Virus record (IMG/VR): IMGVR_UViG_3300028025_000003
Coordinates: 1 to 49,104 of that record
From: a virus
Reading direction: 5' to 3' (one strand)
DNA: 49,104 nucleotides
The notes beneath the pieces are model-generated. The model did not search any database. It was not told the origin of the DNA and was given only the letters and a program-made list of their open reading frames with translations. Below, piece after piece: positions 3,720-23,248 of this stretch; position 1 is the stretch's first letter; every line of letters starts with the position of its first letter. A program made the position numbers and the translations under genes.

Positions 3720-4802
3720 ATGCCTACAAAAATGCTTCGTCCTAACGTTGGTATTTATGTTGCATCCGCTACTGCGTTTGCTAACTGGGCAGCCCCTACG
3801 CTGACTGAGATCACAAGCGCAACTAATGTATTCAACATTTCTCCAGCCGTTACTGACGACTATACACTAAACCAGGCTGATTCAGACGCTGACACATCGC
3901 TTGCGATTGTGGACAACGCTAACGTCAGCACACCTACTTACTACAACTACGAGGCTTCTCTAGACGGTTTCCGTGACGAGAACCCAACAGCAACCTCTGT
4001 TTACAACAAGTTCCGTGACCTATTTGCTGCTCCAGATGTAAAGTATTACATCATCAAGCGCATTGGTAAGGTTCACTCTGCTGCTTTTGCTGCAGGCGAC
4101 TTGATCTCTGTTTTCGGAGTAAAGACCGATTTCCCTATTGACATTGTTGGCGATGGCGAAATGCTTCGCATTGGTGCTCGTTTCCTAACCACTGGTGAAG
4201 TTGCTATCAACGTTGCCGTTGGTGCAGGTACTGCAGGTTCTGGTCCAGCACTTGCTGCATCTGTTGGCACAAAGTCAACCTCAAACGGTAAGATCAAAGT
4301 TTGGTGGGTTCCATCAGCGAACATCACCGGAACTGAAGACGCATGGGTTGCTGCACCAGATATCTCAGACTTGTCTGCAGCTGGCTCAGTTGACCTAACC
4401 GAAGCAATCGCTTGGGATGGTTATGACCTTGGTGCAACCGACTCTAACAAGATTGACGACCGCGGTATCCTTGACACCGGCGCTGTTCAGTCTCGTGGAT
4501 TCGCACAGTTCAACGGTGCCTTGACCTTCTTCCGTGGAATCACCTCAGAGTCCACAGGCGCTTACGCAGTCGCATTTGATACCTTCAAGGCATCAACTGA
4601 CGGTTCACGCCCAGAAGGCTTCCTAGTGACCCGTATCGGGCTTCCTACAAGCACTGCAGTTGCTGCAACTCAGAAGTTGAACGTTTTCAAGTTCATCGCT
4701 GACGCAACTATGGACAACACCGAAGGTGAAGACAGCGTTAAGTTTATGGTCAACTTCCAGCCTCAGGGCAAGTTGAACGTGAACGTTGCTGCCGTAGCCT
4801 AA
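3720..4802 (+). CDS. Major tail (tube) protein
   Basis: This 360-residue protein is Ala/Thr/Asp-rich. It starts 'MPTKMLRPNVGIYVA' and carries a middle region with 'FPIDIVGDGEMLRIGARF' typical of tail-tube subunits, then a further beta domain. Codon use is smooth and typical of a highly expressed structural gene. It is followed by a strong hairpin and then by the frameshifted tail assembly chaperones, the standard siphovirus order. It would polymerise around the tape measure protein to form the tube. Confidence 0.85.
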   Translation: MPTKMLRPNVGIYVASATAFANWAAPTLTEITSATNVFNISPAVTDDYTLNQADSDADTSLAIVDNANVSTPTYYNYEASLDGFRDENPTATSVYNKFRDLFAAPDVKYYIIKRIGKVHSAAFAAGDLISVFGVKTDFPIDIVGDGEMLRIGARFLTTGEVAINVAVGAGTAGSGPALAASVGTKSTSNGKIKVWWVPSANITGTEDAWVAAPDISDLSAAGSVDLTEAIAWDGYDLGATDSNKIDDRGILDTGAVQSRGFAQFNGALTFFRGITSESTGAYAVAFDTFKASTDGSRPEGFLVTRIGLPTSTAVAATQKLNVFKFIADATMDNTEGEDSVKFMVNFQPQGKLNVNVAAVA

Positions 4803-17689: not shown

Positions 17690-17704
17690 TTTGCTCCATT
17701 CTTG

Positions 17705-17777
17705 CTGGCCATCCTGGGCTCGAACCAGGGACATTTCGATTAACAGTCGAACGCTCTGCCAACTGAGCTAATGGCCA
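17705..17777 (-). tRNA. tRNA-Asn (GTT)
   Basis: The minus strand folds as a full cloverleaf. The acceptor is TGGCCAT/ATGGCCA, 7 bp without mismatch. The D-arm contains GCTC-AGTTGGCA-GAGC. The anticodon arm is TTCGA/TCGAA with loop CTGTTAA (anticodon GTT). The T-arm is CCTGG-TTCGAGC-CCAGG, and the discriminator is G. The CCA end is not encoded. It is the only canonical tRNA I found. Confidence 0.95.
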
Positions 17778-20055: not shown

Positions 20056-20446
20056 CGAACTTAGCAACACCCTTACTGATCTTTGCTTGACTTATGCCGC
20101 TTAGTTTTTCTAACATGCCTTGAGATGTTCCAGCATCCAAGATTCGTTTCACAACTTTATAATTAACTCTTTTGTTAACGCGGTCATGAAAGCAATCTTT
20201 GATATCTTCAAGACTATCAATAGATAAACGACCACCAGTTTTGTCAGACTTCTTGCAAAGCCTTGCAACGGTTTGGTGTGAAAGAATACCCTCAGTCATT
20301 GCTGAGATCTGGCGAGCAGAGTAAATCCCATACTCTCCAATATCTTCAACAATGCTAAAAAGTTCTTGCTTTGAAAGACGGCTTGCGTGATTGCGCAACC
20401 AGATTGCTTCATTAATTGCCCTAAGCAAAAGGATGTCCTTATCCAC
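20042..20446 (-). CDS. Helix-turn-helix-like protein
   Basis: This 134-residue protein starts at GTG 20446, preceded by GGAGG at good spacing, and overlaps the primase-helicase end by 8 nt. It is all-helical and basic. Two segments read like helix-turn-helix units ('YSARQISAMTEGILSHQTVARLCKK' in the middle and 'QGMLEKLSGISQAKISKGVAKF' at the end, each cited only as position markers). It probably binds DNA, perhaps as a regulator or replication accessory. No named family is recognised. Confidence 0.65.
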   Translation of the reverse strand: MDKDILLLRAINEAIWLRNHASRLSKQELFSIVEDIGEYGIYSARQISAMTEGILSHQTVARLCKKSDKTGGRLSIDSLEDIKDCFHDRVNKRVNYKVVKRILDAGTSQGMLEKLSGISQAKISKGVAKFDGSI

Positions 20447-22643
20447 GTGCTACCTCCAAGAATAGTTTGTTATGTTCATTCATTACGCCCATGCGACCCT
20501 GAGACTTTAGTGCATCAACCATCTCATCAAACTCGCGCTTACGCTTGTTTCCAAATCTCCGGTAAGCCTCTTCATAGCGGATACGGCCACCCTTTGAAGC
20601 CACAAGAGCCTCTAGTTCATCAACCTCTCGCTGCCATTCAGATGCTGAGATCGCACCTGCCATTCGGACCAAGTTTCTAAACCAGTCCTCAGAGTAGTGA
20701 ATAGCAATTAGCAAGTGACGCAATTCAACCATGTCTGACTTGTCATACATCGCCAACAAGACGGCACACTTCCAAACAGAAAGCGCAAGTCGCTGGCGCG
20801 AAGGCTCGATTGACTCTTCATGCTCGTGACCTGATGTAAAGTTACCCATCTCCCACTTGAAAGCATTAAAGCGCTCCATGGCCTCATCAGTCATGCGAAC
20901 TGGCCTAGGAAAAGGTGCGCCCTTCTTCTGCCAGTACATGTAAGACTCGTAAAGCGAGCGCACAATTCCGTGCATCTCTTCATCGCGAACAGCAACCTCT
21001 AGTTCATCGGCCTGCTGGATTGCTTCGCTTTGGAATGTTCGATCCGGTGCGTCTGCAATTACATAAATGAAACGCGCCAAGAAACCTGACCGGAAATACT
21101 CCGTGGTCAAGACATCTGCAGTCTTGCTGGTAATGCCCATCAAATACATAATGAAGTTTGTTTCAGCGCGTTCAGACTGCATGCCTTTACCTGGTGTGCT
21201 GCCACCTGTTGATCGAACCACAACCGGAACATGGCCGTCATAAAGCTCGGTGAAGCGCTCTGCAGCAGTAGCCATGTAAGTCTTGTTGATAAAGTCCTTG
21301 AACATACCCTGGACTTCATCGCGGTGAAACAGCGAGGTCTGCTTGTCGCGGTTTGAAAGCAACTTGACAAGACCTTCGGCAGTAACATCCGAACCGACAT
21401 CGATCTGATAGCCAGCAAACTTTTCATACTCGCGAACCATGCGAAGCATAAGTTGACGCGAAGTTGACTTACGGCTACGAGTGGTCTCACCAAGAATCAT
21501 GAACCAAAGGTTTAGGCCCATCTTGCCATACTTCGGAATCGCGTGACCGGAATCTGAGAAGACCGAAGATAGCACAGTAAAGGCGGAAGCAATTTGATAT
21601 TGGTAAGCAGCATCTGTTTTCTTTGAAGCCCAGTCATTGTATTTATCAATAAAGGTTGGGTTCTCTGCAACAATCTCGCGCTCACCAAAAGTTAGGAAAT
21701 CAATTTCTTTCTCTTCTTCTTTGGCAATCAATTCACCTGAGGCTTCAAAAGCAGCGTTGCCATCAACCGCATAAATCTGAGATGCTCGCTGAACCTCACG
21801 CCATAGGTCGCCATCTGGATCAGAACGCTTCTGACGGTCTGAGCGGTGGTATTTGTTGCACTTAGCGTGACGAGCAACCGCAAAAACTTCTTCGGCATTT
21901 AGACCAGCACGAAACAACTCAAGTTCTAGTTTCCAAAGACGACGCGACAAATCAGCACCCGGCATTGGCTCATCAAGATACAGCGACATAACTTCTGGAT
22001 TGCTTGGCACCTTAGCCAAAACATCCATAACGCTAAGTGGTTGCTCAGGCATTGGTGCAAGGCTAGGGTCAAGAATTGAATCGACTACGACAGCGCCGTA
22101 AACCTTATCCATTTCTTCAACGGTGTAAATTGCTCCGTTGCTTGTGGACTTGACTCTGTAAGTTTGCTCATACTTTTTATTGCTTGTGTTTGGAACGCGA
22201 AGCAACTTAGTCGGGTTCCAGCCTGAAAGATCGCAGCCATCAGCCTTGTGCGCGTAAGCAACCTTCTTAGACAAAAGCGCAATACGCGAAGGGTCCTGAG
22301 AGGTAGGCAAGATCCAGTAGCAGTGCCAGCGATTAGGCGAGGTCTCAACTGAAATTGATGGCTCGATTAAAAACTTCTCCGGTGGACATTCATCTGCGTC
22401 AGCATAAACTACAGCTACAGACTTTGCGTTCTCGCGAATCCTGCGCTCTTCATAGAAAAGGATTGGCGAAACATAAACGTCTTCATCTTTAAATCTTTCA
22501 GAGTATTCAACCATCTGATCGATCTCATCTGGATAACTAAAAAACTTTTGGACAGTCGGATTGTTTCTAGCATCTCTAGTGACTAAGGTTGCATAACCAG
22601 CACCATCGCCATAAATCGCTTCGAAAAAATCTCTGATCTCCAT
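20439..22643 (-). CDS. Primase-helicase (AEP/RepB-type primase plus DUF3987-like ATPase)
   Basis: This 734-residue protein has a primase-like N-terminal domain with Y-A-D82-A-D84-E, R-W-H107-C-Y-W and 'LLRVPNTSNKK', the metal and template motifs of RepB/PrimPol-type primases. A linker leads to an ATPase domain (about 330-660) with P-loop G-E-T-T-R-S-R-K-S-T (385-394) and 'HRDEVQG' as Walker B. A winged-helix-like end follows (about 685-734). It probably unwinds and primes phage DNA. No other primase, DnaB or DNA polymerase is visible. AAGGAAGGG precedes the ATG, and a tRNA-like element lies in the leader. Confidence 0.85.
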   Translation of the reverse strand: MEIRDFFEAIYGDGAGYATLVTRDARNNPTVQKFFSYPDEIDQMVEYSERFKDEDVYVSPILFYEERRIRENAKSVAVVYADADECPPEKFLIEPSISVETSPNRWHCYWILPTSQDPSRIALLSKKVAYAHKADGCDLSGWNPTKLLRVPNTSNKKYEQTYRVKSTSNGAIYTVEEMDKVYGAVVVDSILDPSLAPMPEQPLSVMDVLAKVPSNPEVMSLYLDEPMPGADLSRRLWKLELELFRAGLNAEEVFAVARHAKCNKYHRSDRQKRSDPDGDLWREVQRASQIYAVDGNAAFEASGELIAKEEEKEIDFLTFGEREIVAENPTFIDKYNDWASKKTDAAYQYQIASAFTVLSSVFSDSGHAIPKYGKMGLNLWFMILGETTRSRKSTSRQLMLRMVREYEKFAGYQIDVGSDVTAEGLVKLLSNRDKQTSLFHRDEVQGMFKDFINKTYMATAAERFTELYDGHVPVVVRSTGGSTPGKGMQSERAETNFIMYLMGITSKTADVLTTEYFRSGFLARFIYVIADAPDRTFQSEAIQQADELEVAVRDEEMHGIVRSLYESYMYWQKKGAPFPRPVRMTDEAMERFNAFKWEMGNFTSGHEHEESIEPSRQRLALSVWKCAVLLAMYDKSDMVELRHLLIAIHYSEDWFRNLVRMAGAISASEWQREVDELEALVASKGGRIRYEEAYRRFGNKRKREFDEMVDALKSQGRMGVMNEHNKLFLEVARG

Positions 22644-22670
22644 TAAAATTTGCCCTTCCTTTGTGCAAGT

Positions 22671-22735
22671 CCCCCATCAAGAATCGAACTTGAAACGTCA
22701 TGAAAGGAGGGGAAGTGACGTTATCCAATTGGGAG
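22671..22735 (-). ncRNA. tRNA-like element lacking a D-arm, with anti-Shine-Dalgarno loop
   Basis: Minus strand, 65 nt. The acceptor-like stem is CUCCCA/UGGGGG (22730-22735 with 22671-22676; one U-G pair). A 7-nt linker AUUGGAU stands where the D-arm should be. An anticodon-like arm has a 7-bp stem AACGUCA/UGACGUU and a 15-nt loop (22701-22715). A consensus T-arm follows: UCAAG-UUCGAUU-CUUGA. The loop contains CCUCCUUUC, identical to the 3' end of bacterial 16S rRNA. It lies in the leader of the primase-helicase gene, about 27 nt before its coding start. It could be a separate RNA or a cis-regulatory fold. It is not a functional decoding tRNA. Confidence 0.55.
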
Positions 22736-22774
22736 TAGTAAGCCAGTTTCTAGACATGGCTCAGGTCTTGCCCA

Positions 22775-23248
22775 TTAGTTAATCCAAGGGCTTTCGGCAG
22801 TTGTCGCGCCCATTGACGACAGAATACTGCCAGCAGTTGCATCTGCTTTTGCGAAACCACTAACTTCGTTTCGTGGCTCCCCATTCTGATCTGCGCCAAT
22901 CTTAACTGTCACAGTCAGGTCTTTACCCAGAAGTTCATTGATTTCTGGGACAGCAAAGTCACCGGCATTGATGTCGTAACCTAGGGCCTTGAAAAAGGTC
23001 TGAGCCTTAAAGAAGTCCTTAGCGACATAAAGTGGCACAAGTGAGAACACGCGACGGTTCTCGTGCTGTGGTCCGGTGATTTTGAATTGAATGTTGAAGC
23101 GCGGCTTACCAGCATTTTCACCAGACTTAACTTCTTCAAGTTTTACGTTGAAGACATTTGCCTGATACTTGCCAGCCGGGATCGGGCTGTAATCACTCTT
23201 TACATCGAGTGACTCGTTGGTGATTCCCTTGATTACGATAGATGACAT
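22775..23248 (-). CDS. DUF669-like ssDNA-binding/annealing accessory protein
   Basis: This 157-residue protein has an OB-like beta pattern. It opens with 'IPAGKYQANVFNVKLEEVKSGENAGKP' spacing and continues with 'FNIQFKITGP...NRRVFSLVPL' and 'FFKALGYDINAG'. This matches DUF669-type phage proteins that accompany Sak/Erf-type recombination systems. It directly follows the Sak4-like ATPase gene. A single-strand DNA-binding role in recombination or replication is likely. It is distinct from the SSB at 29890-30360. Confidence 0.75.
   Translation of the reverse strand: MSSIVIKGITNESLDVKSDYSPIPAGKYQANVFNVKLEEVKSGENAGKPRFNIQFKITGPQHENRRVFSLVPLYVAKDFFKAQTFFKALGYDINAGDFAVPEINELLGKDLTVTVKIGADQNGEPRNEVSGFAKADATAGSILSSMGATTAESPWIN

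Follow-up and report, generated by a model that had tools for sequence, protein, structure and literature searches.

A pseudoknot-linked tRNA-like RNA with an anti-Shine-Dalgarno loop, conserved between the ssb and primase genes of related phages

The element and its locus

Inspection of the window (the whole 49,104 nt stretch of DNA analysed, from IMG/VR virus record IMGVR_UViG_3300028025_000003) showed an RNA element of about 105 nt on the minus strand, within a replication operon with the gene order exo, sak4, ssb, the element, tRNA genes in some cases, and primase. The SSB-like gene (22775-23248; DUF669; phrog_378, single-strand DNA binding) and the DNA primase/helicase gene (20439-22643; PHROG/domain match to phrog_10514 and DUF3987) lie on the same strand as the element. 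A tRNA-Asn(GUU) gene (17704-17777, minus strand) is found about 5 kb downstream; since many relatives have a tRNA-Asn between the element and primase, this gene appears to have been moved in the window.

The 5′ half of the element, missed by the first-pass annotation of this DNA, is an H-type pseudoknot (22768-22739, minus strand) that begins 6 nt past the stop codon of ssb. According to the helix parse, its stem S1 pairs AGAC (22765-22768) with GUCU (22752-22755), and its stem S2 pairs UGAGCCA (22757-22763) with UGGCUUA (22739-22745). The loops are a C, a U and L3, AGAAAC (22751-22746); L3 is A-rich in every member of the family. The pseudoknot is separated from the tRNA-like half by 3 nt in the window and by two to four nt among the members.

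The 3′ half, read on the minus strand from 22735 to 22669, has a tRNA-like fold. An acceptor-like stem of 6 bp, including one U-G, is formed by CUCCCA (22730-22735) and UGGGGG (22671-22676). In place of the D-arm there is a stemless 7 nt region, AUUGGAU (22723-22729), in which the GG is equivalent to G18-G19. The anticodon-arm-like stem has 7 bp, AACGUCA (22716-22722) pairing with UGACGUU (22694-22700), and is closed by a pyrimidine-rich loop of 15 nt, CUUCCCCUCCUUUCA (22701-22715), with the anti-Shine-Dalgarno (anti-SD) core CUCCUUU at 22709-22703. A T-arm, UCAAG-UUCGAUU-CUUGA (22677-22693), follows directly, and the element ends in AC (22669-22670; equivalent to A73-C74). This end is conserved among the members and resembles the N73-C ends of most ordinary tRNAs of the same phages. 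The stems, linker, loop and T-arm that the first-pass annotation had placed at 22671-22735 were found to be exact on direct reading of the sequence.

The element escapes the standard tools. ARAGORN, and Rfam at the gathering threshold, detected only the tRNA-Asn at 17704-17777 in the window, and ARAGORN found no tmRNA. The element had no gathering-score match among the Rfam 15 families, a sub-threshold hit to Plastid-ycf2 being a chance match; any other Rfam family was therefore ruled out as its identity. A reading of the plus strand was also set aside: it carries an SD-like AAAGGAGGGGAAGTG, but the corresponding frame has only seven codons, and it is superfluous given the conserved minus-strand RNA.

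Conservation and covariation in related phages

Relatives were collected as 51 IMG/VR loci found through the window primase (phrog_10514; 58-90% identity), and further members of the family were added by pattern scans beyond these loci. A pattern fixed on the CCTCCTTTC loop and T-arm of the window found no match, since the relatives differ in both, while relaxed patterns succeeded; ordinary tRNA-Thr(UGU)-type genes with the anticodon loop CUCCUUUGUAA, and a few chance matches, were removed from the results. The element is common to a large group of uncultured phages, being present in all 48 primase-derived loci with enough sequence before primase to contain it. Its position is fixed between the SSB-like DUF669 gene and primase, with or without intervening tRNAs or spacer. 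It directly precedes primase in clade A (the window, L002-L014, L021, L042, L044 and L045) and, outside this clade, in L017, L028, L035, L036, L046 and L047; in the other relatives, the gap to primase is filled by ordinary tRNA genes (Asn, Thr, Trp, Gln), from one to several in number, or by other spacer. In L017 (near 3860-3875) and L047 primase apparently starts at AUU (AUU AAG ACA GGT), the start in relatives being AUG or UUG.

The covariance-model search suggested by the first-pass annotation covered 28 whole records (20 from IMG/VR and eight cultured phages) and gave matches at E<1e-9 across the element family. Each of the 20 IMG/VR records had one strong match, always in the ssb-primase gap. 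At the DNA level, neither the window region nor the element of L029 had a match among cultured phages, and a scan of prokaryote genomes with the primase, for a prophage or host, yielded 13 candidate stretches and no confirmed one.

Folding of the window sequence by itself was uninformative: the minimum free energy of 22660-22745 was unremarkable (z = -0.75), and the fold, which is non-significant and differs from the conserved structure, was discarded as evidence. The case for the structure thus rests on the relatives. Among 53 members from related phages, compensatory changes were found in each of the five helices, as expected of the structured tRNA-like RNA that the first-pass annotation had proposed. 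Counted as distinct variants per helix, S1 had 15 variants with 65 of 65 standard pairs, S2 21 variants (130/131), the acceptor-like stem 26 (154/158), the anticodon-arm-like stem 36 (245/247) and the T-stem 20 (100/100); the T-loop is near-invariant. The D region is 6-14 nt long and keeps its GG in 53/53 members, a length that leaves no room for a D-stem. The summed helix score averaged 68.8 in the members (minimum 61) and 26.2 in 416 shuffles (maximum 53). When the window sequence was shuffled at constant composition, with the loop core and T-loop fixed, none of 300 shuffles attained its summed helix score, and the score of its pseudoknot was matched by 0.3% of shuffles.

Because the helix parser itself seeks pairs, an independent check was made on a MAFFT alignment not fitted to the structure. 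RNAalifold recovered the same three tRNA-like stems, with double changes at 15 of 17 pairs; in the acceptor-like stem, compensatory changes occurred at four of the five modelled pairs. The pseudoknot was added to this structure by hand before covariation scoring. Paired alignment cells amounted to 83.5%, versus 66% in shuffled and at most 43% in slid alignments, and the covariation score was 0.508, versus 0.206 and at most 0.143, respectively. This compensatory selection on all helices rules out a functionless decayed tRNA.

The loop is 11-22 nt long and about 91% pyrimidine in the primase-derived set, and is longer in L057 and L071. Leaving out loci found through loop patterns, its core CUCCUUU, also part of the 16S rRNA 3′ tail, occurs in 45 of the 48 loci; the remaining three (L033, L040 and L048) hold CUCCUCCU instead, so that the loop is kept rather than lost in the relatives. 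The first-pass annotation had equated nine bases of the loop with the 3′ end of 16S rRNA. The window loop does hold CCUCCUUUC (22710-22702), but the full match is specific to the window: the sequence in many relatives is UUCUCCUUUC or CCUCCUUUGU, and what all members have in common is CUCCU(UU) alone. Clade A loops are mostly UUCUUCUCCUUUC and the others mostly CUCUCCUCCUUUGU, the window form being intermediate.

Complementarity of the loop to gene leaders

The ribosome-binding site (RBS) of the window primase, AAAGGAAGGG (22653-22662, minus strand), is complementary to the loop over 9 of 10 bp, with one C-A mismatch. In close relatives the complementarity between the loop and the primase RBS reaches 14 bp, well past the match to 16S rRNA, and the predicted loop-leader duplexes of clade A have energies of -13 to -20 kcal/mol, versus about -9 when the 16S tail is the partner. 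In L002, for example, the loop CUUCUUCUCC-UUUC pairs with the primase leader GAAA-U-GGAGAAGAAG (-19.6 kcal/mol; 16S tail, -9.3). In L006 and L007 the loop UCUCCUUUUCC pairs with GGAAAA(A)AGGAGA, and the complementarity in L021 is 11 bp; that in L002 and L008 is 10-14 bp. Outside clade A, the loop CUCCUUUCG of L056 pairs with the primase leader CGAAAGGAG, and UCCUCUCCUUU of L028 with AAAGGGAGGA.

The fit of each loop to its own leader, relative to the leaders of other phages and beyond row and column means, was assessed in a double-centred permutation test. For primase, p was 0.0007 across the loci where it directly adjoins the element and 0.002 when the test was restricted to clade A; for exo the values were 0.005 and 0.04, and all of these are optimistic because leaders and loops share ancestry. 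No such signal was seen, in the same two sets, for the leaders of ssb (p = 0.25 and 0.66), sak4 (0.19 and 0.72) or the gene after primase (0.29 and 0.65); the ssb, sak4 and p20 controls lay at p = 0.2-0.7. Ranked against all predicted gene leaders of a genome, primase was the top partner of the loop in four of six clade A genomes (1/46, 1/46, 1/58 and 1/27); it ranked 6/65 in the window and 5/54 in L021. In three phages with intervening tRNAs it ranked 1/48, 2/47 and 2/52, and it stood lower in L074 (9/64), L053 (6/48) and L035 (12/23). The suggestion that the loop pairs in cis before the primase start thus gained comparative support from the closest relatives, but is less clear in the window itself, where primase has the rank and the mismatch given above and the sak4 leader pairs better with the loop.

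When all distinct loops were pooled, primase (z = -3.3) was followed by sak4 at z = -2.7 and exo at -2.0, and on a common locus set primase scored -2.4 versus -2.7 for sak4. The specificity for primase is therefore not general, and the idea that primase alone co-varies with the loop is weakened; sak4 and exo leaders co-vary because the loop follows the SD style of the clade (GGAGAA or GGAGG). Judged from these comparisons, each phage has a loop tuned to SDs among its own replication genes, and primase is the clearest predicted target where it is adjacent.

The other reading in the first-pass annotation, a host-wide action favouring leaderless phage transcripts, was not supported, and of the two the cis idea is preferred. 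An SD-like 4-mer precedes 42 of the 65 predicted genes of the window and 65-87% of those of relatives, so that an anti-SD RNA would strike the phage's own early genes first. The GGTANNAT motif to which this reading had been linked is only mildly enriched (23 occurrences versus 14.5 expected over positions 1-49104 on both strands; 2 of 100 shuffles reach 23).

Possible function and comparison with known systems

We tentatively favour, at a little short of an even chance, a tRNA-derived antisense element, probably processed by RNases P and Z, that masks SDs on replication genes of the phage itself, chiefly that of primase. The element, a pseudoknot plus a D-stemless tRNA-like domain, would be transcribed within the replication operon, and host RNase P and RNase Z would mature its tRNA-like half as they do the neighbouring tRNAs. 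The acceptor/T-arm stack and the A73-C74 end make such processing plausible. Maturation would split the operon RNA at the ssb-primase junction and leave a stable tRNA-shaped RNA, the exposed loop of which may pair with the SDs of replication genes, above all primase, either in cis in the uncut precursor or in trans after release. Binding of the 30S subunit would thereby be blocked, and primase synthesis restrained until processing or titration frees the SD. Cis pairing in the folded L-shape looks tight, as it must span the distance from the acceptor end to the loop with a linker of 5-9 nt in clade A; it would be easier for the loop to pair before folding or cleavage, or as a released RNA in trans. 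Since tRNA genes stand between the element and primase in many relatives, a purely local cis switch is not universal, and trans action is likely where the intervening tRNAs are excised. In this view, the element would act as an antisense small RNA, with a tRNA scaffold presenting an anti-SD seed loop.

Other functions were weighed against this antisense role. The loop might act as a general anti-SD in trans, pairing with many phage (and host) SDs or rivalling the 16S tail, and so shift stage-specific translation. The core shared by the 16S tail and nearly all members is consistent with this, as are the frequent tRNA genes between element and primase and the agreement of loops with clade SD style (UUCUCCUUUC with SDs GAAAGGAGAA, CCUCCUUUGU with SDs AAGGAGG); the L002 loop is even a 12 nt perfect complement of its own sak4 and exo SDs. 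We nonetheless consider it unlikely, given the gene-specific primase signal in directly adjacent loci, a dosage limited to one copy per genome, and the loops of L024, L053 and L056, which have UCUCC despite AAGGAGG SDs and make the tracking of general SDs imperfect. Punctuation of transcripts by tRNAs is well established in mitochondria, and a degenerate tRNA might have been kept solely as an RNase P/RNase Z cut site separating a pseudoknot-capped ssb mRNA from the primase mRNA, the loop being a by-product. This would agree with the conserved acceptor/T-arm stack and 3′ AC, and with other phages that fill the ssb-primase gap with tRNAs or tRNA-like RNAs (a pseudoknot and an odd tRNA in Arthrobacter phages, a pseudoknot and tRNA-Leu in a Microbacterium phage). 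It is quite unlikely, however, as it explains neither a 91%-pyrimidine loop with a CUCCU(UU) core across phages with primases about 60% identical, nor the retention of the element beside ordinary tRNAs.

SmpB binds the D-stemless tRNA-like domain (TLD) of tmRNA, and in a related phage the corresponding spot is occupied by a tmRNA domain without a tag; the D-stemless elbow might accordingly soak up SmpB or tRNA nucleases, or the loop, as a copy of the 16S anti-SD at which actinobacterial toxins are known to cleave, might soak up such toxins. MazF-mt3 recognises U^CCUU and cleaves the 16S anti-SD (PMC5408214), and the mycobacterial anti-SD is removed by RelE1 and MazF-mt11 (PMC12620021, PMC12274833). 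The core CUCCUUU does contain UCCUU, but UCCUGUUU in L040 and L048 destroys this motif, the loop lacks the CACCU of MazF-mt11, and the co-variation with primase is left unexplained, so such a decoy appears improbable. T4 gp32 binds the pseudoknot in its own leader, and the T4/RB69 gene 32 operator is a pseudoknot of about 28 nt plus an unstructured RBS (PMC535899); by analogy, the phage SSB-like protein might bind the pseudoknot of the element, the tRNA-like part shaping the site for feedback on primase. The closeness of the pseudoknot to the ssb stop, its conservation in distant relatives and a loop geometry broadly similar to that of gene 32 (short L1, A-rich L3) fit this idea. Homology between DUF669 and gp32 would have to be assumed, no UUAAA repeats were seen, and the tRNA fold and loop would be left unexplained; we regard it as having little probability.

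Cultured phages offer clues to the origin of the element. In the Arthrobacter phages Amavida (L110, 3549-3661) and Molivia (L111, 2570-2686), a pseudoknot of the same type, with S1 kept, follows ssb and precedes a tRNA-like gene with a D-arm; the anticodons are unreadable (loops UUCCCAAGAG and UCCCAAGG) and the genes are annotated as tRNA-OTHER or tRNA-Gly. These RNAs are probable cousins of the element. The same pseudoknot type lies directly before tRNA-Leu(CAA) in the ssb-primase gap of Microbacterium phage Lifes (L119, 1963-2079). A canonical tRNA is the probable ancestor of the tRNA-like half, and the likely history, as far as sequences can tell, would be the joining of a pseudoknot and a tRNA, after which the D-stem and anticodon were lost and an anti-SD loop was acquired. 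Stenotrophomonas phage Jojan60 (L112, ON045087.1) has an 83 nt tag-less tmRNA domain (2874-2956) just before primase, which matches the Rfam tmRNA model at 61.8 bits (gathering 47) and lacks the whole tag/pseudoknot body. It has a G3-U70 pair, a UUCGACGG D-loop and an encoded ACCA; the record lacks a tmRNA annotation. Two further RNAs were observed: in Clavibacter phage CN1A (L115, 2928-2976) an acceptor plus T-arm RNA (-19.5 kcal/mol) with an encoded ACCA and no anticodon arm abuts primase, and in Curtobacterium phage Yappy (L114, 2777-2866) an odd 90 nt tRNA-like RNA, missed by ARAGORN and with a sub-threshold tRNA-Sec match (31.6 bits), is preceded by a strong hairpin and followed by tRNA-Leu and primase.

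Phage tRNA clusters are usually taken as a codon supply, and their odd members dismissed as undetermined tRNAs. Here a conserved cluster member has apparently switched from decoding to RBS control, joined to a pseudoknot shared with cultured phages. If true, tRNA processing would be a switch for replication-gene expression, and the tRNA shape a stable scaffold for antisense loops; it can then be asked whether primase-adjacent tRNA-like RNAs govern the entry of phages into DNA replication. It is possible, if doubtful, that the element represents a new phage regulatory RNA: a tRNA stripped of D-stem and anticodon and rebuilt as a mobile anti-SD, matured by tRNA enzymes, competing with the 16S tail for translation of replication genes, with a loop co-evolving with the phage's own RBSs, and perhaps entering the ribosome like a mini-tmRNA. 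A search confined to open-access papers found no description of such an RNA and, as far as could be checked, the combination of a pseudoknot, a D-stemless tRNA-like domain and an anti-SD loop is undescribed.

Several known systems resemble the element in part. The E. coli thrS operator is a tRNA-mimicking mRNA leader beside an RBS, in which anticodon arms are mimicked for the synthetase. The element likewise places a tRNA-like structure next to an RBS, but its own loop complements that RBS. With canonical phage tRNAs (RF00005) it shares a T-arm with a tRNA-type T-loop, an acceptor stem, the N73-C end and a position in tRNA clusters; it differs in lacking a D-stem and a 7 nt anticodon loop, and neither ARAGORN nor the Rfam tRNA model picks it up. 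The tRNA-like domain of tmRNA (RF00023) also combines an acceptor stem and T-arm with a stemless D-loop containing GG, and has a long helix for the anticodon arm. The element, however, has neither G3-U70 (its third acceptor pair in the window is C-G) nor an encoded CCA; at about 105 nt it has no room for a tag frame, its anti-SD loop is open, and the window scans gave no tmRNA match. Staphylococcal RNAIII/RsaE-type sRNAs (PMC9217828) block translation through a single-stranded C/U-rich loop complementary to SDs, and the element has a conserved unpaired C/U-rich seed complementary to the SDs of its predicted targets; those sRNAs have no tRNA fold or linked pseudoknot, and their pairing is experimental, that of the element inferred. 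In comparison with the T4 gene 32 leader pseudoknot (PMC535899), that of the element lies 3′ of ssb, lacks UUAAA and continues into a tRNA-like domain, but both are phage H-type pseudoknots that lie upstream of an RBS in replication operons that include an SSB gene.
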